Part shown: positions 857 through 21,010 of the stretch, piece by piece
How the letters are laid out: every line of letters begins with the position of its first letter
Position numbering within the stretch: the first letter of the stretch is position 1
IMG/VR virus record: IMGVR_UViG_3300008448_011501
Coordinates: 1-21,140 of that record
Length of the DNA stretch: 21,140 nt
Source of the DNA: a virus
Direction: 5' to 3' (one strand)
Program-made: the position numbers and the translations under genes
The notes under the pieces: model-generated
Told to the model about the DNA's origin: nothing
The model's database searches: none
The model's input: only the letters and a program-made list of their open reading frames with translations

Positions 857-1360
857 ATGAAGATCGGTTTTAACTGCAGTTGTTTCGATCTTTTTCATGC
901 TGGGCATGTTACAATGCTTAAAATGGAAAAAGAAATGTGCGACTATTTAAAGGTAGCACTTCAAGTTGATCCTTCCATTGATAGACCTGGTTTAAAAAAT
1001 AAACCAGTACAGTCGATTTATGAGAGATATACTCAGGTGCAAGGATGTAAGTATGTTGATGAAATTCTTGTCTACGATACTGAAGCAGATCTTCTCAATT
1101 TAATAAAGACTCAAACTTTTCATATTAGGTTTTTAAGTGAAGAATATAAAGATATTGATTTTACCGGAAAGCAATATTGTATTGAGAATGGAATAGAGAT
1201 TTATTATCACTTGAGGAAGCATCAATATTCAAGTTCTGAGTTGAGAAAAAGAGTATATGAATTTGAAAAATTGAAAAAAGAAGAAAAGGATGTCAATAAT
1301 ATTATTCAATATTCTCCAGAAATTTTAGAAAAATATTTGATAAAAAATGATTTATTATGA
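857..1360 (+). CDS. Cytidylyltransferase-family protein (glycerol-3-phosphate cytidylyltransferase-like)
   Basis: This is a 167-residue nucleotidyltransferase of the TagD / HIGH superfamily. It probably activates a small phosphorylated alcohol or sugar with CTP. Residues 1-20 (MKIGFNCSCFDLFHAGHVTM) carry the nucleotide-binding HAGH motif at 14-17. The second family motif is at 124-133 (YSSSELRKRV), matching the ISTTxL..RI region of TagD. TagD proteins are about 130 residues, so the charged tail of about 30 residues is extra. Glycerol-3-phosphate is the usual substrate in this subfamily, but heptose or ethanolamine phosphate cannot be excluded. It is the first gene after the terminator and promoter, has no clear ribosome site, and overlaps the next gene by ATGA. 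Confidence 0.8.
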   Translation: MKIGFNCSCFDLFHAGHVTMLKMEKEMCDYLKVALQVDPSIDRPGLKNKPVQSIYERYTQVQGCKYVDEILVYDTEADLLNLIKTQTFHIRFLSEEYKDIDFTGKQYCIENGIEIYYHLRKHQYSSSELRKRVYEFEKLKKEEKDVNNIIQYSPEILEKYLIKNDLL

Positions 1361-2277: not shown

Positions 2278-2319
2278 AATCTTATATGTTAGAATTATAA
2301 CCATAGTATTTCATTTTGT

Positions 2320-3327: not shown

Positions 3328-3328
3328 T

Positions 3329-3334
3329 AGGAGG
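3329..3334 (+). promoter_or_regulatory. Ribosome binding site for the ColD-like gene
   Basis: AGGAGG starts two bases after the gmd stop and lies 11 bases before the ATG at 3346. It is one of the few strong Shine-Dalgarno sites in the cluster and supports this start. Confidence 0.65.
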
Positions 3335-3345
3335 AATCGTAAGAT

Positions 3346-4509: not shown

Positions 4510-4532
4510 ATTATTTTTTATAGTTAAATTAC

Positions 4533-4539
4533 AAAGGAG
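4533..4539 (+). promoter_or_regulatory. Ribosome binding site for the GME gene
   Basis: AAAGGAG ends 8 bases before the ATG at 4548, in a 38-base AT-rich gap. It gives the epimerase gene independent translation initiation. Confidence 0.65.
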
Positions 4540-4547
4540 ATTTATTA

Positions 4548-5618: not shown

Positions 5619-5619
5619 A

Positions 5620-6507
5620 ATGAAAGTATGTTTTTATACGGAAGGGCATCTTGGTGATTTCATCATCGGAATCCCTTTCTTTAAGTTATTAATTGAAAAA
5701 TATCCAAATAATGAATATTATCAGTACATTTATGGATCTGATGGTACGGTATATCCTGATATTTTTATTAGAACCGTACCTAATTTGATTCCAACTGAAA
5801 ATATAGATGGTGATATAGTTATTCCAACATGGTTTTGCAACCCAATATATGTACCACTTCATTTGAATACGGAAGAAGTTCTTAAGACTTTATATCCATA
5901 TGATATGGTATCGAATCAAAAATATTTCTGGAAACATGTTTATGCGAAATACGGATTCGATATAGAAATTCCAGATGATATTGGATTAGATTTTGATTTT
6001 GGTACAATATTAGATAAAGAGTCTATTCTCTTAATTGAAAATTTAAAAACAAATGTTCGCAAAAAAATTCTTTTTGTCAATATTAAAGGTAGATCTGGAC
6101 AGACTGATAATGAAGATTGGTTGCCGAGAATAAACCAATTAGCATCAGTTCATACTGAATATGATTTTTATTATACGAATACTGAAAGTCATGAAATAGT
6201 TAATCAGAATGTTATTCATACTCCAACTATTTTTGGTAAACACAAATCTGATATTATTCATAACTCGTATTTAAGCACGTTTTGTGATATAATAGTTGCA
6301 AAGAATTCTGGAGCTTTTCAGGCAATATCCATGCAGAATAAAAACGTTATGGATGATAAAAAAATTCTTTTGTGTCAGACTGAAAATAATGTCCATGTTC
6401 CAGATTTGGAGTGTTTTTATAATCGCAATTTATACCGAGCATCTAATATCCACACTAGAACAACTTCAGAAACGTTTTCTAGACTATCACAAATTTTAAA
6501 TTCATGA
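5620..6507 (+). CDS. Uncharacterised protein with GT9-like N-terminus
   Basis: A 295-residue protein that I cannot assign firmly. The N-terminus, TEGHLGDFIIGIPFFKLL at about residues 7-24, resembles the GD-xxxxx-P loop at the start of heptosyltransferase-type (GT9, GT-B fold) enzymes. In the C-terminal part, CDIIVAKNSGAFQAISM at about 222-238 resembles the donor-site region where such enzymes have a Ser-Gly before the next helix. No signal peptide or membrane segment is visible. It is very AT-rich, more so than the preceding epimerase gene. It starts one base after that gene's stop and overlaps the next by ATGA. A role in sugar transfer is inferred from the motif and context only. Confidence 0.6.
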   Translation: MKVCFYTEGHLGDFIIGIPFFKLLIEKYPNNEYYQYIYGSDGTVYPDIFIRTVPNLIPTENIDGDIVIPTWFCNPIYVPLHLNTEEVLKTLYPYDMVSNQKYFWKHVYAKYGFDIEIPDDIGLDFDFGTILDKESILLIENLKTNVRKKILFVNIKGRSGQTDNEDWLPRINQLASVHTEYDFYYTNTESHEIVNQNVIHTPTIFGKHKSDIIHNSYLSTFCDIIVAKNSGAFQAISMQNKNVMDDKKILLCQTENNVHVPDLECFYNRNLYRASNIHTRTTSETFSRLSQILNS

Positions 6508-7439
6508 GCATAAAAGTTAGCGAAATTACAAAAGAAGAAGTTTTAAATATTGATAAGTCAGTATTTGTTAGGGAAAATTGGTATTTAATGTGTTGGGGAA
6601 TGGGAGATGCTACAGCGGCTACTCTTTTTCTAGAATCTCGATCTCCCGTTCCCTACAAGATTCTTTGTCAAAAAAGAATATTTAATGGTGTTAAGTTTAT
6701 CTTAGACAACTATACTCCTTCCCCCCATAAATGCACTGAAATTGTAATTTATCCCGATGATTTTCAGGATTATCTTGGATATCCATTTGATCAACAAGAA
6801 ATTATGATGTCTTGTAATGGATTTTTCCCTCAAGATTCACGTTGTATGCAAGAAGCTCACCGATATGGTAAATTAAAAGTTGCCCACATGCCATTTAACT
6901 ATTGGGACTTTTGCAGTAATATTCAAAATACTGGGGTGCTGCAAAAGGCATATGATTATGATCTTAGGGCAACCAAAGATATAGAAGAGAAAACCTGTAT
7001 TTTATTTCCCGAAAGAGGTGATAGTTGGCAAATGCAGGATGATTTCTGGCAAAGTATTGTCGATAAGATGAGAGAAAAGGATTATAGAGTTTTTGTTAAT
7101 ATGACTAAAAAAACAAAAATCTTTAAAAATCAAAAAACTTTTGAGGGGACTGAACCCCTAGACAAATACGAACTACAAGATCTAATGGACTATATTGTTC
7201 GCCATAAAAATCTTGTGATTATTGGTCAGTGTTGTGGGATATTTGATTTGTTCAAATATCTTAGTTGCCTGAAAATTATGATTTTTGCTGGTAGCGATGG
7301 ATCTGATCCTAGTATGCCCGATCCAACAAGAGCTGGATATCCAAATGCACATTTACATAGCACACCCTTCACGAAAAACCATATAGATATTAAGACATCA
7401 GAATTTGATGTGAGACAGTTAGATCTTATCGTTCCATAG
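6504..7439 (+). CDS. Uncharacterised glycan-cluster protein, GT-B-like
   Basis: A 311-residue protein without a recognised family. WGMGDATAATLFLES at residues 31-45 puts a GMGD loop near the N-terminus, as in its upstream neighbour. ILFPERGDSWQ in the middle and VIIGQCCGIFDLFKYL near the C-terminus look like the two halves of a GT-B or GT9-like donor site. It has several cysteines, including an adjacent pair. No membrane segment or signal is seen. It is overlapped by the previous gene (ATGA) and followed by a ribosome site that drives the FkbM gene. A glycosyltransferase role is a guess from shape and position. Confidence 0.55.
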   Translation: MSIKVSEITKEEVLNIDKSVFVRENWYLMCWGMGDATAATLFLESRSPVPYKILCQKRIFNGVKFILDNYTPSPHKCTEIVIYPDDFQDYLGYPFDQQEIMMSCNGFFPQDSRCMQEAHRYGKLKVAHMPFNYWDFCSNIQNTGVLQKAYDYDLRATKDIEEKTCILFPERGDSWQMQDDFWQSIVDKMREKDYRVFVNMTKKTKIFKNQKTFEGTEPLDKYELQDLMDYIVRHKNLVIIGQCCGIFDLFKYLSCLKIMIFAGSDGSDPSMPDPTRAGYPNAHLHSTPFTKNHIDIKTSEFDVRQLDLIVP

Positions 7440-7442
7440 GAG
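7436..7442 (+). promoter_or_regulatory. Ribosome binding site for the first FkbM gene
   Basis: ATAGGAG spans the stop of the preceding gene and lies 7 bases before the ATG at 7450. Confidence 0.55.
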
Positions 7443-7449
7443 TCATATC

Positions 7450-8265
7450 ATGAGTATGCTTGGTCCATATGCTTCGTACAACGAAGCGACAGGATATGCT
7501 GTTCAAATTACGCCAACTTCTGAGTATGTTGGTATATTTGAGAGAATTAATATTCAACCAAAAGGAGTTATACATGTTGGTATGTGGGACTTCTGTGAAA
7601 TGTTTTGCTATGCAAAACTAGTTGGGAATAATGTGATAGGAATTGAAGGAGACCCTAGAACATATGAACATATGTCAAAACCTGTTGCTGACAAATGGGG
7701 AATACTTTCATTTAATCAATGCGTTTCTGATACTGATGGTGAAGAAAAAGATTTTTACCTTCATGGTGAAGGATCTAGTTTTTATCAAGGTCAACCAGAA
7801 TGGAACAGAACAAATGGAATTTCTGTAAAGACAAAAACTCTTTCTACATTGATTGAAGAAAATAATATTGATATGAATCAATATGACTTTTTAAACATCG
7901 ATGCTGAAGGATCAGAACTGGACGTTCTTAAAGGTTTTGAAAAATATCTTCCATATATTAATGTTATTGATATGGAAACATCTTTTCTCGATAAGCATAT
8001 AAGCGGTTGTACCCACGAAATAATTGTTTCATGGTTGCGCCAAAGAGGATTTGAAATTAAGGAAATGTCCTCTTCATATAATAATGAAGGGTGGGGAGAT
8101 TCTCTTTTTGTCAGAAAAGATAAAGAACATACTCCATTTATTGATACCAATTTTGGTGATGAAATTTGGGGTAAAGGATATTTGGAAAAACATTGTTCAT
8201 TTCAGCAACCTGGAACACAACAACTTCATTGGCAAAATAATACACCTGGATTCGTAGCGTTATGA
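7450..8265 (+). CDS. FkbM-family methyltransferase (divergent SAM motif)
   Basis: A 271-residue Rossmann methyltransferase of the FkbM type, expected to O-methylate a sugar using SAM. The family landmarks are a first strand and loop VIHVGMWDFCEM at about residues 40-51, the acidic end of strand 2 (IGIEGDP, 63-69), and the diagnostic FLNIDAEGSELDVLKGF at about 147-163. The motif I glycine loop is unusual: the common DVGANIG is replaced by HVGMWDF, so cofactor binding may be altered. A tail of about 60 residues follows the core. The next gene overlaps by ATGA. A second, more canonical FkbM protein lies at 9492-10202. Confidence 0.8.
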   Translation: MSMLGPYASYNEATGYAVQITPTSEYVGIFERINIQPKGVIHVGMWDFCEMFCYAKLVGNNVIGIEGDPRTYEHMSKPVADKWGILSFNQCVSDTDGEEKDFYLHGEGSSFYQGQPEWNRTNGISVKTKTLSTLIEENNIDMNQYDFLNIDAEGSELDVLKGFEKYLPYINVIDMETSFLDKHISGCTHEIIVSWLRQRGFEIKEMSSSYNNEGWGDSLFVRKDKEHTPFIDTNFGDEIWGKGYLEKHCSFQQPGTQQLHWQNNTPGFVAL

Positions 8266-8633
8266 AAATCGAAGTAGCAAATGGTGAGATTGTTGATAAA
8301 CTTACCATTCTCAAAATCAAATTAAAAAATTCTGATAGTGATTTGAAGACGGAACAAATCCTCAAAGAATTAGAGTATCTTGTTCCTATTGTTGATGATT
8401 TGAATGTACCTCAAGAAATGATTGATGAACTTCAGGAAGTCAATCAAAAAATATGGGATACTGAAGATAGTATTCGTCTATGTGAAAAGAATAAACAATT
8501 CGATGAAAAATTTGTTCAACTTGCAAGGGATGTGTATTATAATAATGATGAACGTTTTCATGTTAAATCAAAAATTAACAAGTATACTAATAGTCAGATA
8601 AACGAACAAAAAATACTTCCCAAATACCAATAA
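8262..8633 (+). CDS. DUF6165-family protein
   Basis: A 123-residue protein that matches my recollection of the DUF6165 family: an N-terminal VANGEIVDKLTILKIK, a central LQEVNQKIWDTEDSIR, then FVQLARDVYYNNDERFHVK and a C-terminal INEQKILPKY. The family has no known activity but is frequent in bacterial polysaccharide gene clusters and in marine phages. It looks helical and soluble, with no catalytic motif I can name. It overlaps the upstream methyltransferase gene by ATGA and is followed four bases later by the GT8-like gene. The context suggests an accessory or adaptor role in glycan assembly. Confidence 0.8.
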   Translation: MKIEVANGEIVDKLTILKIKLKNSDSDLKTEQILKELEYLVPIVDDLNVPQEMIDELQEVNQKIWDTEDSIRLCEKNKQFDEKFVQLARDVYYNNDERFHVKSKINKYTNSQINEQKILPKYQ

Positions 8634-8637
8634 AAAA

Positions 8638-9495
8638 ATGTCTAAAAAAATTCTGATATCTACATGGTGTACAGATGACTATGCAGATTTTCTGAGTATA
8701 CAGAGACTAGTAAACTCAGTTAAGTATTTTCATCCTGATGTAGATCATGTCATTTTTAATACTGAAATGACAGAAAAAGCCTATGCACAATATCCTTGGT
8801 TAACTCCTGTATGGATGATGCCTCCATCATGTATACCTTTTATTGACGATTATGACATGGTTGTTCATTTGGACGCCGATTGTGTTGTAACTGGACCTCT
8901 TGATGAACTTTTTGAGAGTGATGCTGATGTTGTGGGAGTTAGAAACAACAATAGTTTTCATAAGGCAGGATCTCATAGGGGAATCACAATAGCTCATTTG
9001 CAACCATTTGGAAATGGATCTCCATTACCAGTCCAAAAATTTATTAATGCTGGACTGGTGGGTGTAAATAGGAAAGAGTTTTGGTTTGATTGGTTAAATC
9101 TAAATGAAGAGGCAGCACGTATTAGGAGAGAAGTTAATCCTTGTGCTCACGGTCTTGGTGATGAACAAGATACATTAAATCAATTGTTTCATTGGGAAAA
9201 ATATAATACAGAGATAATTGATCCAATATCTTCAAATCTTTCATATGGACTTTGTAATACCTGGGGAGATGATCCCAATAATCATTGGGAGAGTTGGAGT
9301 CAAATCTATGTAAAAGATGATAGACTCTATATTGATGATCCAAATACTGGAAATCCAATGTGGATTAAAGTTATGCACCGAGCAGGTGGAGGTCTCGGCA
9401 GCGAACTAAATAGGAAATATGGTGGTCTTTACAATTGGTTAAAGACTGTTGTTCCAAATGAAACTTTCGAATACATTAACAAAATAACATCATGA
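8638..9495 (+). CDS. GT8-like glycosyltransferase
   Basis: A 285-residue GT-A-fold glycosyltransferase. The metal-binding DxD motif is in VHLDADCVVTGPLDEL at about residues 76-91 (Asp79-Ala80-Asp81), preceded by a typical N-terminal strand ILISTWCTDDY. VQKFINAGLVGVNRKEF and GLGDEQDTLNQLF further on match the acceptor and divalent-metal regions of GT8-type enzymes, and a late VMHRAGG supplies the usual third metal-ligand histidine. No membrane anchor is seen. It follows DUF6165 after four A residues and overlaps the next FkbM gene by ATGA. The donor sugar cannot be deduced. Confidence 0.75.
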   Translation: MSKKILISTWCTDDYADFLSIQRLVNSVKYFHPDVDHVIFNTEMTEKAYAQYPWLTPVWMMPPSCIPFIDDYDMVVHLDADCVVTGPLDELFESDADVVGVRNNNSFHKAGSHRGITIAHLQPFGNGSPLPVQKFINAGLVGVNRKEFWFDWLNLNEEAARIRREVNPCAHGLGDEQDTLNQLFHWEKYNTEIIDPISSNLSYGLCNTWGDDPNNHWESWSQIYVKDDRLYIDDPNTGNPMWIKVMHRAGGGLGSELNRKYGGLYNWLKTVVPNETFEYINKITS

Positions 9496-10202
9496 CCGAC
9501 GTTCTTAAATTTACTGATATTTCTGGAAATATCATAGACCTTTCTTCATCTGAGAATTATAAGCAACATGCACTTGCTGAACATTCTTGTACGATTGCTA
9601 TAATCAATCAATTTAATGATGACTTTTATTACTTCCTTCGAGATCAGGAAGAACTTAATGTTATTGATTTAGGTGCAAATGTTGGTTTGTTCTCGCTGTA
9701 TGTTTCTCCTATTGCTGAGAAAATTTTTGCAGTTGAACCAACCCCATCTCATTTTGAATTATTGAATGAAGTCATTAATTTAACTCAAAAACAAAATATA
9801 GAAACACACCAGGTTGCAATTGGATTAGAAGATGGGGAATGTGATTTTTATATTCATGAAAGAAATTCTACTATGAACTCCTTTGTTCAGCACAGGACTG
9901 ACCCTCATAGTGGAAAGATTGTAAAAGTAAAAACTCAAACTTTAAATAGTTTTATTGATTCTTTAAATCTTAACTCAAAAGTTGGATTTGTTAAAATGGA
10001 TATTGAAGGATTTGAGAATGAGGTTATTTTTGAACCTTCATTTGAAGATGCGATTTCGAAAATAGACGCAATCTATGTGGAGGTGCATGATTTTGAAGAT
10101 CGTGGTAGAATGAGTTATAATTTCAATAAGATTCAAGACCAGTTCAAGGCTTGGGGAAAAACTGTAGAAAAACTTCAATTTGATGGTATGTTAGTTTATT
10201 GA
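9492..10202 (+). CDS. FkbM-family methyltransferase (canonical)
   Basis: A 236-residue SAM-dependent methyltransferase. Motif I is canonical, VIDLGANVGLFS at about residues 57-68. Strand 2 ends in FAVEPTP (79-85). The FkbM signature GFVKMDIEGFENEVIFE lies at about 165-181. It would O-methylate a hydroxyl of the cluster's glycan or of a precursor. It starts in an ATGA overlap with the GT8-like gene, and its TGA shares its last base with the ATG of the transketolase gene. Confidence 0.88.
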   Translation: MTDVLKFTDISGNIIDLSSSENYKQHALAEHSCTIAIINQFNDDFYYFLRDQEELNVIDLGANVGLFSLYVSPIAEKIFAVEPTPSHFELLNEVINLTQKQNIETHQVAIGLEDGECDFYIHERNSTMNSFVQHRTDPHSGKIVKVKTQTLNSFIDSLNLNSKVGFVKMDIEGFENEVIFEPSFEDAISKIDAIYVEVHDFEDRGRMSYNFNKIQDQFKAWGKTVEKLQFDGMLVY

Positions 10203-10819
10203 TGAAAAAACTTTATCGTAGATTACTTGACATTTGTTATGAAAATAAACTTCACCATTTGGGAAGTTATTTTTCTTGTTTAGAAATTCTAAACAAAATT
10301 TATAGCGAAATGAGTGAGGATGATATTTTCATTCTTTCAAATGGACATGCTGTTGTTGCATTATATGTAATACTTGAGGAGTATTACGGTTTGAATGCAC
10401 AAGAGTTGTTGGATAAGTATGGGGAGCATCCCAAAAGAAACGAGTTGGACAAAATTTATTGTTCAACTGGAAGTCTTGGTATGGGAATTACTGTCGCTGT
10501 TGGGAGAGCACTCGCTAATCCTAATCGCAATGTATATTGTATGATTTCTGATGGAGAATGTGCTGAAGGATCTATTTGGGAAGCACTTAGATTTTCCCAT
10601 GAAAGCAAAGTTGATAATTTGAAAATCTATGTGAATGCAAACGGTTGGGCAGCATACGATGCAGTTGATTTGGATTATTTGGAAACTAGAATTAAAGCGT
10701 TTAATCCAAAAGTAAACTTTGTTAGAACAACTGTAGAGAGTTTCGGTCTTTCTGGATTGGATGCTCACTACACAAATTTTACAGAACAGCAATATCTGGA
10801 GGCAGTTGAATCGTTATGA
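10202..10819 (+). CDS. Transketolase-like protein, N-terminal (TPP-binding) subunit
   Basis: This 205-residue protein covers only the TPP pyrophosphate domain of transketolase. KLHHLGSYFSCLEIL at residues 16-30 holds the conserved His. ILSNGHA is at 44-50. STGSLGMGITVAVGRAL at 88-104 is a clear family segment. SDGECAEGSIWEALRFS at 116-132, followed after about 15 residues by VNANG, forms the TPP motif (usually GDGE...N; here Ser replaces the first Gly). The open frame can be read from a TTG at 10199, but the ATG at 10202 is the natural start. Together with the next gene it would form a two-subunit ketol transferase. The sugar substrate is unknown. Confidence 0.88.
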   Translation: MKKLYRRLLDICYENKLHHLGSYFSCLEILNKIYSEMSEDDIFILSNGHAVVALYVILEEYYGLNAQELLDKYGEHPKRNELDKIYCSTGSLGMGITVAVGRALANPNRNVYCMISDGECAEGSIWEALRFSHESKVDNLKIYVNANGWAAYDAVDLDYLETRIKAFNPKVNFVRTTVESFGLSGLDAHYTNFTEQQYLEAVESL

Positions 10820-11286
10820 GAAGAAGATTTCAAGAACTTCTTACTGAAGAAATGAGAGCAAATGATAATATTGTTCTCTTAGTTGGTGATGTTGGATATA
10901 AAGTTTTTGATCATCTTCGTGATGAATTCCCTCAAAGAGTTATTAATCCAGGTGCCGCAGAACAACTCATGATAGGTATGGGAGTTGGTTTTGCCTTAGA
11001 AGGAAAGATTCCAGTATGCTATTCAATCACTCCTTTTCTTCTTTATCGCCCATTCGAGTTTATTCGTAATTACTTGCATTATGAGCAGATTCCTGTTAAA
11101 CTTGTAGGTAGTGGACGCAATGATGATTATGGTCCCTGTGGATTCAGTCATTATGCCTGCGAAGATTTGCAAGTCTTAAAAGCACTTCCAAATATTGAAG
11201 TTTATCATCCACAGTCCCCAGAAGAAGTTGATATTAAAAAATTTCTTTATTCGGATAAGCCATCTTATATTAATCTTAAACGATGA
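10816..11286 (+). CDS. Transketolase-like protein, pyrimidine-binding subunit (lacks C-terminal domain)
   Basis: A 156-residue protein corresponding to the middle (pyrimidine) domain of transketolase. NPGAAEQLMIGMGVGFALEG at residues 44-63 contains the catalytic glutamate (Glu49) that activates TPP. ITPFLLYRPFEFIRNYL and LVGSGRNDDYGPCGFSHYACEDLQVL follow the family pattern, ending with PNIEVYHPQSPEEV. The usual C-terminal domain of about 120-150 residues is absent, a domain not needed for catalysis. The ATGA overlap with the upstream subunit shows that the split is a true two-gene arrangement and not a frameshift. It also overlaps the following SDR gene by ATGA. Confidence 0.87.
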   Translation: MRRRFQELLTEEMRANDNIVLLVGDVGYKVFDHLRDEFPQRVINPGAAEQLMIGMGVGFALEGKIPVCYSITPFLLYRPFEFIRNYLHYEQIPVKLVGSGRNDDYGPCGFSHYACEDLQVLKALPNIEVYHPQSPEEVDIKKFLYSDKPSYINLKR

Positions 11287-12104
11287 GAATTTTGTTTACT
11301 GGACATAAAGGAACTCTTGGTAGGGAACTTATTCCATATCTCAGAGAGAATCATGACGTTCAATGTTATGATATTAATTATTCCAGTATTGAAAATGTAA
11401 ATCAATTTTTTCGCAATAGAGAATTTGATTTTATTATACATTCTGCCATTCGTGGAGGTCGTAGAGTCCGACAAGATTCTGCAGAGGATCTTTACAATAA
11501 CCTAATGATGTTTGAGTGTTTAGCATCTCAATCAATCCCTATGATTAATTTCTGTAGTGGTGCTTCATATGGCAGGAAAAAAGATATCGATAATGTAGAA
11601 GAGAAAGACTTTGGAAAATTAATTCCTGATGATTATTATGGACTGTCGAAATATTTGATTACATATCGTTCTCGTCAAATGAGACATGTTTATAATTTGA
11701 GATTTTTTAATGTTTTTGGTCCAGAGTCCCCAAAAGATATGTTTACCACTGTTAACATTAAAAACTATATCAATAAAAGAGAAATCGTTATCTTTAAAGA
11801 TAGATTAATGGATCTTTTTGGGATAGATGATACTAAAAAAGTTGTGGATTTATATCTTTCTGGAGATATAAATCTACCAAGAGAACTCAATCTTGTATAT
11901 TCTAAAAGTTATTATCTTTCAGAAGTTGCTGAAATGATTAATAATTTATCTGATTATAAAGTACCTATTGATATTTTTGAGCCTGGGTATGAAAAATCAT
12001 ATTCTGCTTCTGGTTATGAACTTTCCAAATTGAATTTGGAACTCGATGGTCTTAATACATCAATTAAAAAATGTTATCTGCATTATTTAAACCATGCAAA
12101 ATAA
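11283..12104 (+). CDS. NAD-dependent epimerase/dehydratase or reductase (extended SDR)
   Basis: A 273-residue SDR enzyme that acts on a nucleotide sugar. The dinucleotide loop is GHKGTLG at residues 7-13, and SGASYG at 92-97 with Y119-xxx-K123 forms the active site. There is no dehydratase TDE triad, so a reductase or epimerase is more likely. FNVFGPE at about 137-143 is common in GDP-fucose-synthase-like and RmlD-like SDRs. It follows the split transketolase by an ATGA overlap, which suggests that it reduces or epimerises that pair's product. It is also a candidate for the missing ColC-type step. Its 3' end overlaps the next gene by 11 bases. Confidence 0.8.
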   Translation: MRILFTGHKGTLGRELIPYLRENHDVQCYDINYSSIENVNQFFRNREFDFIIHSAIRGGRRVRQDSAEDLYNNLMMFECLASQSIPMINFCSGASYGRKKDIDNVEEKDFGKLIPDDYYGLSKYLITYRSRQMRHVYNLRFFNVFGPESPKDMFTTVNIKNYINKREIVIFKDRLMDLFGIDDTKKVVDLYLSGDINLPRELNLVYSKSYYLSEVAEMINNLSDYKVPIDIFEPGYEKSYSASGYELSKLNLELDGLNTSIKKCYLHYLNHAK

Positions 12105-12828
12105 AACCTGTTTAATTTATCAACCTGTTGGACTTGGAGATATTATATGGCTTCAGGGACTTATTGATCTTATCATCAACGATGGATTTACTGTTTATTA
12201 TCCTGTGGGTGATATTTATTATGATCTAGTTGTAAAATATTTGAAAAAGGATAATCTAATCTGGGTTAGAGAGTCGGATAATTTTCCTTTAAAAAGATAT
12301 TATGGAACTATTAATATTCATGAAACTCAAGATGAACTTTATTTGCCAGTTAGTTTTGCTGACAGATATCTTCCAAAATGTTCTGTAATGGCTGCAAAAT
12401 ATTATTTTATTTCTGCTCCTATTTCCGATTATAGAAAATCTTTTGATATCATTAGGAATGAAGAGAGAGAAAATAAGTTAATTGAGACTTATGGACTTAC
12501 TGGTGATTATGTAATTCTTAATCGTGCTTTCGGTACAGATCCTGATGACTCAGATAACTTTACTGTAGAAACTGATAAAAAGGTTCATGTAATGAGTCTT
12601 CAGCAAGATAAGTTAAATGGATTCAATGTATTTGATTGGATTAAGGCATTTGAAAATGCCTCGGAAATTCATACAGTTGGCACATGTATTTGTTATTTGA
12701 TTGACAAATATTGCCACAATAATGAGATTCATATGTATCAAAGGAGACATCCTAATCAAGAGCAGACTTTTCATAATGAAATAAATCTTGTGTATAGGAA
12801 TCCCAATTGGATTTATGAAAATCAGTAA
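12094..12828 (+). CDS. Uncharacterised protein with GLGD motif, GT9-like
   Basis: A 244-residue protein without a firm family. The N-terminus QPVGLGDIIWLQGLIDLI at residues 10-27 has the GLGD loop followed by a hydrophobic helix seen in GT9-like and related GT-B enzymes. YVILNRAFGTDPDD in the middle resembles the interdomain strand leading to the donor domain, and IHTVGTCICYLIDKY near the end resembles the donor-site helix. It shares this N-terminal pattern with the genes at 5620 and 6504 but little else by eye. It overlaps the SDR gene by 11 bases. A glycosyltransferase or glycan-handling role is inferred. Confidence 0.55.
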   Translation: MQNKTCLIYQPVGLGDIIWLQGLIDLIINDGFTVYYPVGDIYYDLVVKYLKKDNLIWVRESDNFPLKRYYGTINIHETQDELYLPVSFADRYLPKCSVMAAKYYFISAPISDYRKSFDIIRNEERENKLIETYGLTGDYVILNRAFGTDPDDSDNFTVETDKKVHVMSLQQDKLNGFNVFDWIKAFENASEIHTVGTCICYLIDKYCHNNEIHMYQRRHPNQEQTFHNEINLVYRNPNWIYENQ

Positions 12829-12835
12829 AAAGGAG
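12828..12835 (+). promoter_or_regulatory. Ribosome binding site that sets a GTG start
   Basis: AAAAGGAG lies 7 bases before the GTG at 12843. The nearby TTG at 12842 is followed at once by TGA, so it is not a usable start. This fixes the start of the GT10-like gene at the GTG. Confidence 0.7.
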
Positions 12836-12842
12836 ACTAGTT

Positions 12843-13682
12843 GTGACTGAAAGAGTAAAATTTAATTTAGTTGATAGTACGTTTTCACATTTGGATGGCG
12901 GTAGACTACCAATTCCAAACAAGGGGTATTCCGTTCATGCTAAAGAATCAAAGTATATTGAGTGGGTCACTAATGGTAGTGGAGTAGCAAAATTCTACAC
13001 TGATCGTAGAATCCCAGAAGCCTTTAATGATGATTCTGATGAAATCAAATACGCTTGGTTTTTGGAATCCAAACCTATTGTTCCAGATCTTTTCCAATTT
13101 CTTCGAGATAATCTGGATGCTTTCTTAGAAAAGTTTGAGTACATTTTTGTTTTTGAAAAAGAACTACTGAAGTTGAGCCCTCAGTTTAAGTGGGTTCCTG
13201 CTCAAGGATTTTGGATTCGTGATCCAAAAATCTATGACAAGTCTAAGATGATTTCTATGATTACTTCAAACAAAGTAATGTGTGAGGGTCATAAGAAAAG
13301 ATTGGAATATGTTGAAAAGTTCAGAGATCAAGTAGATCATTTTGGAAATGGTTTTAAGTGGATCGATTGGAAAGAAGAAGGACTTTGTGATTATATGTTC
13401 TCTATCGCAATGGAGAACTGTGAAGTTCCTGGATACTTCACAGAGAAAATTTTAGATTGTTTTGCTACAGGAACGATTCCCATTTACTTGGGTGATCCCA
13501 CTATTGGTGAGCATTTTAATATGGATGGTATTATAACAATTTCTGATGAATTTTATATTTCTGATGAATTGTATTATAGTAAAATGGATGCAATCAAAGA
13601 TAACTTGGAGAGAGCTAAAAAAATGGAAGTTCTTGAAGACTACATCTGGGAAAATTATTTAAAGGAAAAGTTTGGTAAATGA
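12843..13682 (+). CDS. GT10-family fucosyltransferase-like enzyme
   Basis: A 279-residue enzyme whose C-terminal half carries the alpha-1,3/1,4-fucosyltransferase signature: YMFSIAMENCEVPGYFTEKI at residues 184-203, followed by DCFATGTIPIYLGDPTIGEHFN. This is the GDP-fucose-binding region of GT10, with the conserved Glu191-Asn192 and the Lys202. The N-terminal half (acceptor domain) is more divergent. Translation starts at a GTG with a strong ribosome site. GT10 enzymes use GDP-L-fucose, and here the donor could be GDP-L-galactose or a GDP-3,6-dideoxy-L-hexose, which the enzymes at 2320-5618 could provide. No membrane anchor is present. It overlaps the HAD gene by four bases. Confidence 0.88.
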   Translation: MTERVKFNLVDSTFSHLDGGRLPIPNKGYSVHAKESKYIEWVTNGSGVAKFYTDRRIPEAFNDDSDEIKYAWFLESKPIVPDLFQFLRDNLDAFLEKFEYIFVFEKELLKLSPQFKWVPAQGFWIRDPKIYDKSKMISMITSNKVMCEGHKKRLEYVEKFRDQVDHFGNGFKWIDWKEEGLCDYMFSIAMENCEVPGYFTEKILDCFATGTIPIYLGDPTIGEHFNMDGIITISDEFYISDELYYSKMDAIKDNLERAKKMEVLEDYIWENYLKEKFGK

Positions 13683-13999
13683 TTTATGTTTTTGATTTAG
13701 ATCATACTCTTTGCAATATTGTAAGGGGTGAAAATAATAATTGGAAATATTTTGAAGCTACTCCTTACTATGATAGAATTGAAAAAGTAAATCAACTTTG
13801 GGAAGAAGGTCATACAATTATTATTGAGACTGCTAGAGGTTGTAATTCAAAAATTAATCACTATGAAAAAACTTTTGATCAACTTCGTTCTTGGGGACTT
13901 AAATTTCACACATTAAGAACTGGTGTAAAGTATGCCGCAGATTATTATATTGATGATAAAGCAGTAAATAGCGAGGATTTTTTTAATGGGAAGTATTAG
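13679..13999 (+). CDS. HAD-family phosphatase, small
   Basis: A 106-residue HAD-superfamily hydrolase with no cap domain. Motif I is VFDLDHTLC at residues 4-12 (nucleophile Asp6, acid/base Asp8). Motif II is IIETARG (Thr51). Motif III is Lys84 in GVKYAAD, and motif IV is the Asp92-Asp93 pair. It is complete in all four motifs and the small size is normal for this polysaccharide-cluster subgroup. It would remove phosphate from a small alcohol or sugar phosphate. It overlaps the GT10 gene by four bases and the CapK-like gene by 14, which links it to the downstream adenylation module. Confidence 0.87.
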   Translation: MIYVFDLDHTLCNIVRGENNNWKYFEATPYYDRIEKVNQLWEEGHTIIIETARGCNSKINHYEKTFDQLRSWGLKFHTLRTGVKYAADYYIDDKAVNSEDFFNGKY

Positions 14000-15320
14000 C
14001 AGAATTGTTAAAAAATCACCCAACCTTATCAAGTGGTCCTATTACAATCTTGTACCTTTTCATAAAAGGTATGGGAAAGTATATAAGGAAACACTTGATT
14101 TTTTGCTTCATAGTTCCAAATGGAATGAAGAAGAAAAAAAATCTTATCAGTTGTTGGAACTAAAATCTTTGTTATCATATTGTTATGATAATGTTCCATA
14201 TTATAGGGATATTTTTATTGAAAATAAATGGGATCCAAGAGATTTCAAAACAGTTGAAGACTTAAAAAATTTTCCAGTCTTGACTAAAAAGATTATTATT
14301 GAAAATCGTGATCGTTTAATTGCCGATAATAGAAAACTTGATCGTGCATATCCAATCACAACAAGTGGATCTAGTGGCGATAAACTAGAATTTTTTGTTG
14401 ATGATGACACTCTCAAAAAAGAAGCTGCTTTTAATATGAGAGCATATCTTGAACACGGGGCAAAAATGTACGATACTCCCAGTGTTTGGTTGAGGCGTTA
14501 TGTTCCAAAAGATAGTGATTCACCTCTGTGGTATTACGATCATGAACTTAAACGTTTATACATGTCTGCTTATCATTTAAATTCTCAAACAATCAAACTG
14601 TATATTGATAAAATTAATTCTGGCAATTATCAAACAATATGCACGTATCCATCGTCTGCTTACATTCTTGCCTGTTTATGTGAAGAAAATAACTTACATT
14701 TAAAGAATGTGAAAAAAATTCACGTGACTTCAGAAAAAATGTTAAATCAGTGGTATGATAAAGTAGTCGATGTTCTTGGTATTATTCCATGTGGTCATTA
14801 TGGTCAGATGGAAAAAGTATCCTTCATGCATCAAACGGAATGGTCTAGAGATTATAATCAAAACTATGAATATGGTGTTGATGAGTTTTATGATAATGGG
14901 GATGGAACTTTTGGATTGATTGCTACTGGATTTTTAAACTATTACATGCCATTCATTCGTTATCGGACAGAAGATACTTTTGTTTTGGAGGATGGTGTAG
15001 TTAAAGAAATTAATGGGCGAAGCAGTGATATTCTAGTTTCTGCTAGTGGATCAAGATTACCTGGTGTTAATTTTTATAGTTGGATTGATAAAAAAATGCC
15101 AGCGATTAAAATGTTTCAGATCATTCAGAAATCTGGAAGAGACATTGTTTTCAACTATGTCCAGAATTCTGATTGCGGTGATGATATAAAAAGTGATATA
15201 ATAGAGGGACTATCTTCTCGTCTAGGTGAAATGAATTATACAATCAATCGAGTTGATGAAATAAAGAGGGATTTAAAAACAAACAAAATCAGAAGCATTA
15301 TCAATGAGGTGAACGTATGA
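13986..15320 (+). CDS. CapK/PaaK-like adenylate-forming enzyme
   Basis: A 444-residue member of the phenylacetate-CoA-ligase-like adenylating family often called CapK in polysaccharide clusters. ITTSGSSGDKLEFF at about residues 124-137 is the P-loop-like motif. CGHYGQMEKVSF at 269-280 matches the A5 region (YGxxE). FIRYRTEDTFVLEDG and INGRSSDIL supply the A7/A8-type Asp and Arg. It would adenylate a carboxylate and pass it to a thiol or amine, but the substrate is unknown. It lies between a phosphatase and a sugar-dehydrogenase-family gene, so amidation of a uronic acid is one possibility. Both junctions overlap (14 and 4 bases). Confidence 0.83.
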   Translation: MGSISRIVKKSPNLIKWSYYNLVPFHKRYGKVYKETLDFLLHSSKWNEEEKKSYQLLELKSLLSYCYDNVPYYRDIFIENKWDPRDFKTVEDLKNFPVLTKKIIIENRDRLIADNRKLDRAYPITTSGSSGDKLEFFVDDDTLKKEAAFNMRAYLEHGAKMYDTPSVWLRRYVPKDSDSPLWYYDHELKRLYMSAYHLNSQTIKLYIDKINSGNYQTICTYPSSAYILACLCEENNLHLKNVKKIHVTSEKMLNQWYDKVVDVLGIIPCGHYGQMEKVSFMHQTEWSRDYNQNYEYGVDEFYDNGDGTFGLIATGFLNYYMPFIRYRTEDTFVLEDGVVKEINGRSSDILVSASGSRLPGVNFYSWIDKKMPAIKMFQIIQKSGRDIVFNYVQNSDCGDDIKSDIIEGLSSRLGEMNYTINRVDEIKRDLKTNKIRSIINEVNV

Positions 15321-16543
15321 ATGTTAGTTTTGTTGGACTGGGAAAATTAGGATTACCTCTTGCTTGTTGCCTGGCAAAGAGTGGAAATAAAATTCTGGGC
15401 GTAGATAAAAATGAATATATTCTTGAGAAATTGAATAATCAAGAACTTCCTTTTTATGAACCAGGATTATCTGATATCTTTCCACACAAAAACTTTATTG
15501 GATTTACCGATTCATATGCCAGAGCTGTGGAAGAAACAGATGCATCAATTATTTTGGTGAATACTCAACTTGGAGATAGTGGATATTCTGCAGAATTTGT
15601 TGAGTCTGCTCTTACAGATTTATCTGTTAATTTGAAAAAAAGTAAAAAAGAATATCATTTGATTGTTCTTTCATCGACTGTTCTTCCAGGAACAATTAAT
15701 AAATTGATTCATTTGGTTGAGAAAATTTCTGGTAGAAAGTATGGTCAAGGATTTGGATTTTCTTATGTTCCAGACTTTGTAAAACTTGGTAATGTAATTA
15801 AAGACTTTTTGAATCCTGAGTTTTTCCTAATCGGAGCTAATAATAGTCGGGACATTTCTCAGACACAAACTATTTGGTCTAAGTTCCACACCAATAATGC
15901 GCCTAAAAAAATTCTTTCATTGGAAGAGGCAGAGATTGCCAAGGTCGCTTTGAACGCATTTATTGTTAATAAGATCACCTTTGCAAATTTTCTAGGTCAA
16001 CTTTGTGATGGTATGGACAATGTAAATGTGCATAACATTACCGAGACCATAGGATTAGATAAAAGAATTTCTCCATACTTCTTTGGATATGGAACTCCAT
16101 ATGGTGGAACATGTTTTCCTAGAGATACTTCTGCTTTTATTAAATTTGCAGAGAACAGAGGCAAAGAAGCAAAGCATCTTAAATTTGCTGACGAAGTGAA
16201 TGAAAGTCTTCATGAAGATTTACTGAGAAAATGTAGTGGATATAAAAATGTTGGTATTCTTGGTCTATCGTTTAAACCAGCATCCCCAGTCACCATAGGA
16301 TCTCCTTCAGTTAGATTAATTGAAAAACTTGCAAATAAAGGAGTTGGAGTTTTTGTTTATGATGAACTTCCGCAAACATATGATAATTTAAATGGTCTAT
16401 TAGATTTTGTAATCAAATGTGATTCTGCACAGCAATGTGTAGATAAATCTGACGCAATTATTATTATGCATCCTAATAAGTCATTTGCTTCTCTTGATAC
16501 ATCTAATAAAGTGTTCATTGATTTTTGGGGAGTTCTTTCGTAA
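15317..16543 (+). CDS. UDP-glucose/GDP-mannose dehydrogenase family enzyme
   Basis: A 408-residue two-step NAD-dependent dehydrogenase that would oxidise the C6 hydroxyl of a nucleotide sugar to a uronic acid. The N-terminal NAD loop is VGLGKLGLPLA at residues 6-16 followed by GVDKNE. The segment EIAKVALNAFIVNKITFAN at about 206-224 holds the conserved Lys. The active-site cysteine is Cys266 in YGGTCFPRD. The motif usually written PEFLREG is here VPDFVKLGNVIKDF, so it is divergent, and the substrate (UDP-glucose, GDP-mannose or an N-acetylated sugar) cannot be chosen by eye. It is shorter than many members (about 430). It starts in an ATGA overlap, and its TAA shares the final A with the ATG of the next gene. 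Confidence 0.88.
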   Translation: MNVSFVGLGKLGLPLACCLAKSGNKILGVDKNEYILEKLNNQELPFYEPGLSDIFPHKNFIGFTDSYARAVEETDASIILVNTQLGDSGYSAEFVESALTDLSVNLKKSKKEYHLIVLSSTVLPGTINKLIHLVEKISGRKYGQGFGFSYVPDFVKLGNVIKDFLNPEFFLIGANNSRDISQTQTIWSKFHTNNAPKKILSLEEAEIAKVALNAFIVNKITFANFLGQLCDGMDNVNVHNITETIGLDKRISPYFFGYGTPYGGTCFPRDTSAFIKFAENRGKEAKHLKFADEVNESLHEDLLRKCSGYKNVGILGLSFKPASPVTIGSPSVRLIEKLANKGVGVFVYDELPQTYDNLNGLLDFVIKCDSAQQCVDKSDAIIIMHPNKSFASLDTSNKVFIDFWGVLS

Positions 16544-17577
16544 TGATTAAAGTTAGAGAATCTATTAAAAAACTTGAAGAATATAATGTTGGTGGAAGAA
16601 GAAATCTTTCTTCCGACTGGGAATGTTTTGATTGGAATGAATCTGAGTTTCCTCCATCAAATAAAGTTTTTGATGTTGTTAAAAGATTCTATCGTTATGA
16701 AAGATATCCAGATGTTGCAACTTCAAAATTGAAGGAAAATCTTTCCAGATATACTTCTGTCTCAGAAGATTTTATTGAAGTTTATAATGGATCTGACGAT
16801 GCTTTAAGGGATATTTTTACAGTCTTTGTGGACAAAGATACTCAGGTATTATCTTACCAACCTTCTTATACTCAAGTAGATACTTTCATTACTACAAGCA
16901 CTGATAACTACGAGAGGGTTCAAATTGAGGATCCTTTAGGGAAACACCGATATAATTTTGACCATTGCAAATATGCTGATGTTGTTTATCTTGTAAATCC
17001 AAATAATCCTACTGGTAAGTTGTTGAACCCTAAAGAGATTGAAAAATTGATTACATCTCTACCAGATGTTTTATTTGTTATTGATGAAGCTTATTATGAA
17101 TTTGCTAAACAATCTTGCTGTCATTTAGTTGCAACAAATAAAAATTTAATCGTAACTAGAACTTTTTCAAAAGCATTTGGTCTTGCAGCTCTTCGTTTAG
17201 GATATATCATTGCTCACCCAGATCTACTTGCACATCTTAGAAAGTTTAGAAATGGTAAGTCCGTAAATGCTCTTGCACAACTTTGCGGTGTTGCATGTTT
17301 AAATGATTTAGATTATTTGGAGTTTTGCATTTCTGAAATGAATGATGCTAAAAAATTTTTCATGGATAATCTACCAAATCAATATAGTGCAGTGGAAAGT
17401 TTTGCAAACTTTGTTTTAGTCAAAACTCCCGATTCTAAAACTGTGTTAAATAAAATGAAAGAGAATAAAATTCTTATTAGAGATAGAAGTTCTTTTCAAA
17501 ACTTAGATAACTGTGTTAGAATAACAATTGGATCTAAAAAGCAAATTATTAAAATTTTGGATGTGTTGAATAAATGA
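16543..17577 (+). CDS. HisC-like class I/II aminotransferase
   Basis: A 344-residue PLP enzyme of the histidinol-phosphate aminotransferase group. With the start at 16543, NPNNPTG is at residues 152-158, VIDEAY at 179-184 (Asp181, Tyr184), and the Schiff-base lysine is Lys210 in TRTFSKAFGLAALRLGY. An upstream TTG at 16525 would overlap the previous gene more, and the TAATG junction at 16541-16545 is the natural start. Genuine histidine synthesis is unlikely in this setting. HisC-like enzymes of capsule clusters are known to make amino alcohol phosphates, so the role here is probably specialised. Confidence 0.86.
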   Translation: MIKVRESIKKLEEYNVGGRRNLSSDWECFDWNESEFPPSNKVFDVVKRFYRYERYPDVATSKLKENLSRYTSVSEDFIEVYNGSDDALRDIFTVFVDKDTQVLSYQPSYTQVDTFITTSTDNYERVQIEDPLGKHRYNFDHCKYADVVYLVNPNNPTGKLLNPKEIEKLITSLPDVLFVIDEAYYEFAKQSCCHLVATNKNLIVTRTFSKAFGLAALRLGYIIAHPDLLAHLRKFRNGKSVNALAQLCGVACLNDLDYLEFCISEMNDAKKFFMDNLPNQYSAVESFANFVLVKTPDSKTVLNKMKENKILIRDRSSFQNLDNCVRITIGSKKQIIKILDVLNK

Positions 17578-18503
17578 TCGGATACAACAGACTGGGTATT
17601 AATGGACGCCTGGCAAACCAAATGTTCCAGTATGCTTCATTAAGAGGCATTGCAGCAAAGCATGGATATGATTGGTGCATTCCACCAAGAGATAGGCAAA
17701 CCTATCAAATGGCAGAATATGTCTTAATGGATGGATTCAAATTACCCCACGTGAAAGAAAATAATATTGGATTTGTTCCAGCAGAATATCCAATTTATGA
17801 TGAACCTTCTCACGACTTTGATGAAGAACTTTTTGAGAACTGTCCTGATAATATAAATCTTGAGGGATTTAGGCAATCTGAAAAATACTTCAAACATATT
17901 GAAACTGAGATTAGGGAAGATTTTGAGTTTGTAGATGATATCTACGAACCTTGCAAGGAATTTATATCGCAATTTGATGATAATATTATTTTTCTCCACG
18001 TAAGAAGAGCAGATGCTACAGGCAGACCACATCAATATCCAGTAGCTGGAATTGAGTGGTATGAAAAAATGCTCAAGGAAAATTTCTCAGATGACGTTCC
18101 AGTTTTAGTTTTGACTGATAAGTTGGATTGGGTGCAAGAACAGAATTTATTTAAAGGTGATAGATTCTTTATATCAGAAGAAAGGGAATATTCGACTCAG
18201 GCTGTTTGGAATGGTAGGGGGAAGATGGAATATAGTCTATCTCCTTGGATTGATCTCTGTCTTATGAGTTTGTGTAATGGATCCATTTTTCCAAATAGTA
18301 CCTATGGTTGGTGGGGATCTTGGTTGCAGAAAAATAAAAAGTATTCTACGGTTTATCAGCATCCTTACTTTGGTCCGTTCTTCACGGATCAACATGATTG
18401 CTATAGGGACCTTAAAGATTTATATCCTGATGGGTGGATTAGAGGACATCTTCCAGATGAGTTTATTGATAAAGAGTATACTGCCTCCGAAAATGAACTA
18501 TGA
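17574..18503 (+). CDS. GT11-family fucosyltransferase-like enzyme (copy 1)
   Basis: A 309-residue glycosyltransferase of the GT11 (alpha-1,2-fucosyltransferase) family. GRLANQMFQYASLRGIA at residues 11-27 is the N-terminal family motif. FLHVRRADA at 140-148 is the GDP-binding segment, with Ala-Asp instead of the usual Gly-Asp. NSTYGWWGSWLQ at 241-252 is the C-terminal motif. GT11 enzymes use GDP-L-fucose or colitose, and GDP-L-galactose is a plausible donor here. It is a clear paralogue of the enzyme at 20147: both share CIPP, FDEELF, a CPD motif and EKYFKH in the same order. It overlaps the aminotransferase and the next glycosyltransferase by four bases each. Confidence 0.87.
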   Translation: MIGYNRLGINGRLANQMFQYASLRGIAAKHGYDWCIPPRDRQTYQMAEYVLMDGFKLPHVKENNIGFVPAEYPIYDEPSHDFDEELFENCPDNINLEGFRQSEKYFKHIETEIREDFEFVDDIYEPCKEFISQFDDNIIFLHVRRADATGRPHQYPVAGIEWYEKMLKENFSDDVPVLVLTDKLDWVQEQNLFKGDRFFISEEREYSTQAVWNGRGKMEYSLSPWIDLCLMSLCNGSIFPNSTYGWWGSWLQKNKKYSTVYQHPYFGPFFTDQHDCYRDLKDLYPDGWIRGHLPDEFIDKEYTASENEL

Positions 18504-19309: not shown

Positions 19310-20160
19310 AAAAAATATTAATTCTTGGATCTAGTGGTCAGATTGGTGCTTATCTGACAGAATATCTTCGTGAGAAAGGTCATGAAGTTTCGGAGTTTGA
19401 TATTGTAAATGGTGAGGAAGAGGATCTTACTAAGATTCCGAATAGTAAACTAATGCACGACATTCGTGTTGCTGACTTCGTTTTCTTTCTTGCATTTGAT
19501 GTTGGCGGATCTAGGTATCTGAAAAAGTATCAGCATACCTATGACTTTATCAATAATAATATTAGACTTATGGCAAACGTATTTCAGTATCTTGCTGAAT
19601 ATCGTAAACCATTTGTATTTGCATCATCCCAAATGAGCAACATGAGTCATTCTCCATATGGAGTTTTGAAAAGAGTTGGGGAACTTTACACTCAAACTTT
19701 AGGTGGACTAACTGTTAAGTTTTGGAATGTTTATGGTGTAGAAAAAGATGCTGAAAAATCTCATGTGATTACTGATCTTATTCGCAAGGGATTTGAAGAA
19801 GGTGAGTTTGAAATGCTTACGGATGGAACTGAAGAAAGGCAGTTCCTTTACGCGGAAGATTGCTGCGAAGGTTTGGAAACAGTAATGAACTGTTATGATA
19901 ACTTCAAACCAACAGATCCATTGCATATTACTTCGTTTAGAAATGATTCAATTAAATCTGTTGCTGAAATGATTCAGGGTCAATTCAATTTAATTGGCAA
20001 GTATGATGTAAAAATAAAACCAGGTATCGCTAAAGATAGCGTCCAAATGGATAAGAGAAACGAAGCAGATACATACATCACTGGGTGGTGGATGCCTAAA
20101 ACTTCACTTGATAAAGGAATCGCAAAAGTATTTGAGGAAATGAAACATGATTGGATTTAA
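19306..20160 (+). CDS. NAD-dependent epimerase/dehydratase (extended SDR)
   Basis: A 284-residue SDR enzyme. The nucleotide loop is LGSSGQIGAYL at residues 7-17, and ASSQMS (106-111) with Tyr118-xxx-Lys122 in SPYGVLKRVGE forms the active site. VKFWNVYGVE and DGTEERQFLYAEDCCEGL are common to nucleotide-sugar epimerases. There is no TDE dehydratase triad. It sits between two GDP-L-sugar-type transferases (GT7-like and GT11), so a reductase or epimerase acting on their donor, including a ColC-like role, is possible. The preceding gene overlaps by four bases and the following by 14. Confidence 0.8.
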   Translation: MKKILILGSSGQIGAYLTEYLREKGHEVSEFDIVNGEEEDLTKIPNSKLMHDIRVADFVFFLAFDVGGSRYLKKYQHTYDFINNNIRLMANVFQYLAEYRKPFVFASSQMSNMSHSPYGVLKRVGELYTQTLGGLTVKFWNVYGVEKDAEKSHVITDLIRKGFEEGEFEMLTDGTEERQFLYAEDCCEGLETVMNCYDNFKPTDPLHITSFRNDSIKSVAEMIQGQFNLIGKYDVKIKPGIAKDSVQMDKRNEADTYITGWWMPKTSLDKGIAKVFEEMKHDWI

Positions 20161-21010
20161 TCATATTGGAACAATGGGTAGGTTGGGAAATCAAATGTTC
20201 CAACATGCTTCAACAAAAGGTATTGCCAGAAAACTAGGAGTTGAGTATTGCATTCCTCCAGCAAATAGACCTGATTTTCAAATTGATAACTATGGTTTAT
20301 TTGAAGCATTTGAAATGACGAATGTTGATAGTGTTCAGTTTTTAAATAATGGAAACGCTCCACTTGTTCAAGAAAGACAATTTCATTTTGACGAAGAATT
20401 ATTTACTCTTTGTCCAGATCATGTAAGTTTGAATGGATTCTTTCAAACTGAAAAATATTTCAAGCATGTTGAAAGTGAGATCAGAGAGGATTATACTTTT
20501 AGGTCTGAGTGGCTTGGACCTTGTACTGAGTTCATGAGTCAGTTTGAAGGTCAAGAAGTGGCATTCTTACATGTTCGTAGAGGTGATCCAAATCTTGCAG
20601 ACAAGCGTGGATTTAAGTGGGCGTATGTGAATTGCTCAGATCAACATCCTGTTCAACCACTAGAGTATTATGAAGAAGCACTAAAGCATTTTCCAGAAGA
20701 TATGCCTGTACTGGTTTTTTCTGATTCTATTGATTGGTGTAAAGAACAAGATATTTTTAAACCTGATCGTTTTATGTTCTCTGAACCAGAGGATAAGTAT
20801 GATGATGGTGCATTGGTTCCTTATGTGGACTTGTGCATAATGTCTTTGTGCTCTCATGCAATCATTGCCAATAGTTCCTTGTCTTGGTGGGGCGCTTGGT
20901 TGCAAAAAAATCCAAACAAGAAAGTAATCGCACCCAAGATGTGGTTCGGTCCCGCATATAGTCAACACAACACTAAAGATCTAATTCCAGAATCATGGAC
21001 AGTAATTTGA
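20147..21010 (+). CDS. GT11-family fucosyltransferase-like enzyme (copy 2)
   Basis: A 287-residue GT11 enzyme. GRLGNQMFQHASTKGIA is at residues 11-27, HVRRGDP at 142-148 is the canonical GDP-binding segment, and NSSLSWWGAWLQ at 242-253 is the C-terminal motif. It is closer to the classical family consensus than the paralogue at 17574 (RRGD and not RRAD, SLSWWG and not TYGWWG). It could transfer GDP-L-galactose, fucose or colitose. The start overlaps the SDR gene by 14 bases, and its 3' end overlaps the next gene by 16. Confidence 0.89.
   Translation: MIGFNHIGTMGRLGNQMFQHASTKGIARKLGVEYCIPPANRPDFQIDNYGLFEAFEMTNVDSVQFLNNGNAPLVQERQFHFDEELFTLCPDHVSLNGFFQTEKYFKHVESEIREDYTFRSEWLGPCTEFMSQFEGQEVAFLHVRRGDPNLADKRGFKWAYVNCSDQHPVQPLEYYEEALKHFPEDMPVLVFSDSIDWCKEQDIFKPDRFMFSEPEDKYDDGALVPYVDLCIMSLCSHAIIANSSLSWWGAWLQKNPNKKVIAPKMWFGPAYSQHNTKDLIPESWTVI

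Follow-up and report, generated by a model that had tools for sequence, protein, structure and literature searches.

The window analyzed here is the IMG/VR virus record IMGVR_UViG_3300008448_011501, taken over its whole length of 21,140 bases, and it holds approximately 24 genes, all on the same strand and nearly all of glycan type. Four consecutive genes on the + strand are the subject of this analysis: a small EcbF/BcbF-like phosphatase of the HAD superfamily (106 residues, 13679–13999), a CapK-like AMP-forming ligase of the PaaK fold (CapK; 444 residues, 13986–15320), a member of the UDP-glucose/GDP-mannose 6-dehydrogenase family (UGD; 408 residues, 15317–16543) and a HisC-like class I/II pyridoxal phosphate (PLP) enzyme (344 residues from its ATG, 16543–17577). 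The original prediction had placed them as overlapping genes, and all four open reading frames are indeed intact at these positions, with their motifs present and with successive overlaps of 14 (HAD/CapK), 4 (CapK/UGD) and 1 bases (UGD/HisC-like), the last one as TAATG, in which the ATG of the HisC-like gene overlaps the UGD stop codon. This layout points to translational coupling of the four, and the catalytic residues of all four proteins are kept across their relatives.

The HAD protein carries all expected motifs (DxDxT, T, K, and DD), and its family profile matches PDB entry 9iqw, 'Capsule biosynthesis protein' (9.5e-10). Its match to TIGR01689, the EcbF/BcbF capsule phosphatase, is weak (E 3.9e-5, 23.6 bits, below the curated cut-off of 162), as would suit a remote relative only of that phosphatase. 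CapK gave no match in the Pfam scan, while it matched DVU1553/FlxY/PaaK models with E-values of 8e-16 to 1.5e-11, and it scored 43.5 bits against TIGR02155 (phenylacetate-CoA ligase PaaK), below the curated cut-off of 646. Adenylation motifs are present in the window protein (SGSSGD, YGQ.E, RYRxxD, GR, and K434, the C-terminal A10 lysine), and G128, G131, Y272, E276, R325, Y326, D330, G344, R345, and K434 are the same in every phage and bacterial CapK protein of the alignment. The AlphaFold model has the PaaK fold (Foldseek E 1e-18 to PaaK1), with moderate confidence (pLDDT 72.5, TM ~0.5); its best fold matches are PaaK (2y27/2y4o) and BT_0428 (4r1l), followed by the ester- or amide-forming NatL2, AjiA1, and ClxA. 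UGD contains three Pfam UDPG_MGDP_dh domains, a TIGR03026 match of 269 bits (over cut-off) and the catalytic cysteine in GGTCFPRDT, and its best scores are with UDP-glucose enzymes.

The HisC-like protein matches PF00155 (4.4e-38), the CobD model (173 bits) and TIGR01141 (261 bits, just under the curated cut-off of 276.55). It has the lysine in SKAFG as well as Y15, R314, and R327, the equivalents of Tyr20, Arg322, and Arg335, which in Escherichia coli HisC have a role in binding the phosphorylated substrate. Because these phosphate-site residues are kept, the enzyme would fit a small phosphorylated compound rather than a nucleotide sugar. A role as a histidine gene was set aside, as no other his genes were present among the Pfam-scanned proteins of the cluster and the score lies below the hisC cut-off. 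Nucleotide-sugar aminotransferases are normally of the DegT/ArnB type; such a function was also set aside for the HisC-like protein, as the cluster already has a DegT/ArnB-type enzyme at 3346–4509.

CapK and the HisC-like protein were used as queries against viral contigs, which gave 31 further contigs with CapK (L numbers below denote individual contigs). When the window is counted in, the CapK proteins fall into 22 groups at 95% identity, 19 at 90% and 15 at 80%, with the lowest identity at ~40%; some contigs may stem from repeated sampling of one virus, and the group counts are the safer numbers. The HAD gene lies directly upstream of CapK in 30 of the 31 loci with upstream sequence, the exception being L044, in which a methyltransferase gene stands between them. 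UGD follows within two genes after CapK wherever the contig continues; in some relatives a methyltransferase, an unclassified open reading frame or a small SET-domain protein is inserted between the two (the last at 6592–6873 in L006 and 5651–5944 in L009). A PLP enzyme is present in all loci except L013 and L032, and the L032 contig ends inside CapK. All untruncated contigs with the HisC-like gene (22/22) also have CapK. The order is HAD-CapK-UGD-HisC in the clade of the window and HAD-CapK-HisC-UGD in the clades of L016, L036, L042, and L045, and the members stay together while most neighbors differ between loci. The grouping is not due to chance, since the 31 other viral contigs show it again in rearranged order: the four genes are a real unit. 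A distance-congruence test gave Mantel r values of 0.85–0.94 between the module genes and 0.77–0.87 for an epimerase control; as the control correlates too, this result shows shared inheritance and not function.

The PLP position is occupied by one of two enzyme types. CapK has 829 residues in L028–L031, with a class I/II PLP enzyme as its C-terminal half, and the separate HisC-like gene is absent; in L044 the same PLP type occurs as a free-standing gene. This alternative type is 24–29% identical to the HisC-like protein of the window and 34–40% identical to the Sulfurospirillum 'norcobamide biosynthesis serine-O-phosphate decarboxylase'. Among solved structures its best match is 6OUX (5.8e-64 for the L044 protein), titled 'Threonine phosphate decarboxylase-like enzyme', which we take to be SMUL_1544 of Sulfurospirillum. 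The Sulfurospirillum decarboxylase is ~40% identical to the fused PLP domain of L029 and L031, whereas the window has the HisC-like type instead, and it belongs to a cobamide cluster, unlike the phage PLP types, which are found in glycan clusters. SMUL_1544 has been proposed to make ethanolamine phosphate (PMC4585668). Each locus with a PLP enzyme has either the HisC-like or the serine-phosphate-decarboxylase-like type, not both together. The fusion in L028–L031 ties the amine branch directly to CapK. In L031, a carbamoyltransferase gene (6108–7691) lies directly upstream of the HAD gene and the fused CapK-PLP gene. That the four genes share no product and are loosely linked cargo within a glycan island is extremely unlikely: phage glycan islands do shuffle genes, and the co-inheritance distances correlate with the epimerase control as well, but local order and membership are kept over ~40–95% CapK identity and a gene fusion comes in addition.

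We consider it probable, with a modest degree of confidence, that the four genes work together as a module, carried by the phage, for amidation of a glycan uronic acid. The original prediction had proposed such a module and likened it to Cj1435–Cj1441 of Campylobacter jejuni. In the HS:2 capsule pathway of that bacterium, Cj1437 makes serinol phosphate and Cj1436 ethanolamine phosphate for glucuronate amidation; the amide ligase Cj1438C couples the still-phosphorylated amine with release of ADP, acting on polymer-bound glucuronate or a glucuronate glycoside but not on UDP-glucuronic acid, and the HAD enzyme Cj1435 removes the phosphate from the amide after amidation (PMC11800397, PMC12409886). 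Like this pathway, the phage clusters bring together in one place a dehydrogenase for sugar nucleotides, a HAD protein, a putative PLP transaminase (in relatives a serine-phosphate-decarboxylase-like PLP enzyme) and a candidate for the ATP-using ligase. The HisC-like enzyme parallels Cj1437 and the serine-phosphate-decarboxylase-like enzyme of the relatives parallels Cj1436, both being likened by their described reactions and not by sequence. The phage unit differs in that it is virus-borne, has one PLP type per locus while HS:2 has both amine makers together, encodes a HAD protein of 106 residues as compared with a 25.8-kDa Cj1435 construct, and has an AMP-forming fold where Cj1438C is an ADP-producing ligase. 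No Cj1438C-like ligase was recognized by Pfam/NCBIfam among the window proteins at 857–17577, as judged by annotation and not with the Cj1438C sequence. By analogy, the unit would work like Cj1435–Cj1441 in a functional sense that does not imply orthology, and CapK would be a non-orthologous replacement of Cj1438C. The original prediction is partly supported: the proposed module and its likeness to Cj1435–Cj1441 gain from the conservation of the unit, the CapK-PLP fusion and the PLP exchange that parallels Cj1437/Cj1436, while the ligase is of another kind and the HAD protein is much smaller; the substrates are still conjectural.

In the pathway that we infer, for its substrates, amide bond, order of steps and final glycan alike, the nucleotide uronate would come from oxidation of a nucleotide sugar by UGD. 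The PLP enzyme of the window would probably be an aminotransferase acting on a phosphorylated ketone, with dihydroxyacetone phosphate, giving serinol phosphate, as the leading candidate, although this is a guess only; that of the relatives L028–L031 and L044 would probably be a serine-phosphate decarboxylase giving ethanolamine phosphate. CapK would use ATP to convert the uronate carboxylate to an acyl-AMP, which the amine would attack to form the amide. Finally, the HAD enzyme would dephosphorylate the amino-alcohol part, most likely once the amide has formed, as is the order in C. jejuni. The original prediction had dephosphorylation precede the CapK step, and this order is probably reversed, given that C. 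jejuni couples the phosphorylated amine and its HAD enzyme acts on the amide (PMC11800397, PMC12409886).

A heptose-type sugar-phosphate phosphatase could also be considered for the HAD protein, which would then stand outside the amine branch and leave only UGD, CapK, and the HisC-like enzyme to cooperate. The label phosphoheptose isomerase borne by phrog_1238, which the HAD protein matches, the small HAD of S-SRM01 described below, and an HldE-II-like gene at 857–1360 of the window would suit this, but the HAD gene is beside CapK in all loci with upstream sequence (with one gene between them in L044) while other neighbors change, and we regard this alternative as very unlikely. The gene at 857–1360 encodes an HldE domain II-like nucleotidyltransferase (phrog_7878) and suggests a heptose-type or related nucleotide sugar in the window cluster.

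Returning to uronate amidation, CapK is the sole ATP-using, acid-activating candidate among the genes seen. To our knowledge, CapK/PaaK-like genes recur in polysaccharide loci without an assigned reaction. The nearest curated models are acyl-CoA ligases and the nearest folds are PaaK phenylacetate-CoA ligases, so CapK might instead be a coenzyme A (CoA) or acyl ligase that activates another small acid for N-acylation of an amino sugar or amine, with UGD independent and the genes merely sharing a cluster. However, no acyltransferase was recognized next to the four genes in the window, UGD and a PLP enzyme of the small-phosphoamine type are kept across very different neighborhoods, and a PLP domain is fused to CapK itself; we judge this explanation unlikely. 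ClxA and NatL2 are known examples of PaaK-fold ligases that couple two molecules without CoA (PMC12519233, PMC7204872). NatL2, AjiA1, and ClxA share the PaaK fold with the phage CapK and proceed from an acyl-AMP directly to a C(O)-N or C(O)-O bond without CoA; they differ from it in their aromatic acids, their C-terminal extension and their place in secondary-metabolite clusters.

The Vibrio polysaccharide (VPS) offers support of an independent, bacterial kind. Bacterial CapK relatives on plasmids adjoin wecB/wecC uronate genes, including a VPS-type cluster, and the CapK proteins of VPS-type plasmid clusters are ~23–25% identical to the phage CapK. VpsH (VC0924) is annotated as CapK (PMC12505965), VPS contains N-acetylgulosaminuronic acid (GulNAcA) amidated with glycine (PMC3901696), and the enzyme adding this glycine was called unknown in a 2015 review (PMC4432689). 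Like the phage unit, the Vibrio VPS cluster thus has a CapK gene (vpsH) together with a uronate-forming dehydrogenase (VpsB), and its polymer contains an amidated uronate (GulNAcA-Gly). Its amine is glycine and needs no amine-making genes, whereas the phage unit has HAD and PLP partners; that the VPS CapK lacks HAD and HisC partners fits, because glycine is at hand. By this analogy VpsH may be the VPS glycine ligase. The use of glycine in VPS, along with the common fold and phosphate site of HisC-like and CobD-like enzymes and the 173 bits of the CobD model, would also be compatible with the same amidation using another amine, for example aminopropanol (through threonine-phosphate decarboxylase chemistry) or an amino acid, in which case the HisC-like enzyme would use another phosphorylated substrate. 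Since serine-phosphate decarboxylase is the nearest match of the alternative PLP type, we hold such a variant to be quite unlikely.

Several points weigh against amidation by serinol- or ethanolamine-type amines as set out above. It is unproven that a PaaK fold can form an amide directly on a sugar acid, with NatL2 and ClxA using aromatic acids and NatL2 forming an ester first, and the bacterial CapK relatives share only ~23–27% identity with the phage CapK. The best scores of the HisC-like protein are with genuine HisC models. In L013, a 184-kb record, HAD-CapK-UGD is kept and no PF00155 (class I/II PLP) match was found anywhere, so that another source would have to supply the amine. Small HAD proteins in cyanophage glycan clusters have other jobs, as in Synechococcus phage S-SRM01 (Kyanoviridae; L076), where one is encoded beside SIS and nucleotide diphosphate (NDP)-sugar synthase genes.

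The sugar itself may involve a fifth member. A GDP-mannose 3,5-epimerase-like short-chain dehydrogenase/reductase is encoded at 4548–5618 (+ strand; best structure 2c59, E 1.1e-82), 13 genes from the unit in the window, and may act on the sugar, its membership being tentative. As 23 of the 32 loci contain this gene along with the unit, and it adjoins UGD directly in L013, L042, L043, and L044, a GDP-linked or epimerized uronate is a possible sugar product.

We also put forward, tentatively and with some doubt, a wider reading: that this is a phage pathway with a PaaK-fold, AMP-forming sugar-amide ligase, that the same family explains the glycine amide of VPS and makes the CapK proteins of polysaccharide clusters uronate-amide ligases, and that phages carry interchangeable serinol and ethanolamine versions, one of them with a fused ligase-decarboxylase. 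The role of a PaaK-fold enzyme as a sugar-amide ligase was not documented in the literature found; searches for CapK or amidated uronates in cyanophages yielded no paper, and those for CapK with taurine and capsule nothing usable. Should CapK proteins act as uronate-amide ligases, a single assay would give them a function and bear on the missing glycinylation step of VPS, and the CapK-PLP fusion is a single polypeptide in which the amidation idea can be tested. Phages would then carry a pathway by which a sugar acid of a glycan loses its negative charge and gains an amino alcohol, and such amidation could alter receptor recognition by other phages, or dress the virion or the host surface.

Regarding distribution, bacterial genome contigs were scanned with profiles of CapK and of the HisC-like protein, and no confirmed bacterial relative emerged. 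Remote CapK proteins (21–26% identity) occurred in only two unverified fecal records among 50,697 deposited phage records, and at the sensitivity of this search no characterized phage carries the four-gene unit. HisC matches in phage records were inspected: L080 is an ordinary host hisC contig, and the match in cyanophage S-SCSM2R is an unrelated gene beside SPASM-domain and tail genes.

The original prediction drew its comparison from a bacterial capsule region and did not mention a virus; the window is a phage glycan cluster. Its bases 1–838 are ~81% identical to S-SRM01, which carries a different sugar cluster beyond the junction at position 838; the nearest relatives of the module, L003 and L012 (CapK 90–93% identical), have psbA on their contigs, and a T4-type Gp23 capsid protein is encoded on three other module-bearing contigs. 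Because of the S-SRM01 junction, psbA and Gp23, the window most likely belongs to a T4-like cyanophage and covers part of its variable glycan island. Besides the genes described, among them that of the DegT aminotransferase, the window encodes FkbM methyltransferases, enzymes resembling RmlB and GDP-mannose dehydratase, a split transketolase and fucosyltransferase-like proteins of glycosyltransferase families 10 (GT10) and 11 (GT11), among others. Immediately upstream of the unit, a GT10 fucosyltransferase-like gene (12843–13682, + strand) overlaps the HAD gene by 4 bases and is a possible transferase, though not a constant neighbor between loci. Downstream, an alpha-1,2-fucosyltransferase-like gene (GT11; 17574–18503, + strand) overlaps the HisC-like gene by 4 bases and likewise varies between loci; it is one of two such paralogs (phrog_2644) in the window cluster, the other being at 20147–21010. 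The transketolase at 10199–11286 consists of two adjacent overlapping genes, the thiamine pyrophosphate-binding half followed by the pyrimidine-binding half, and the same split is found in L003, L010, and L012.

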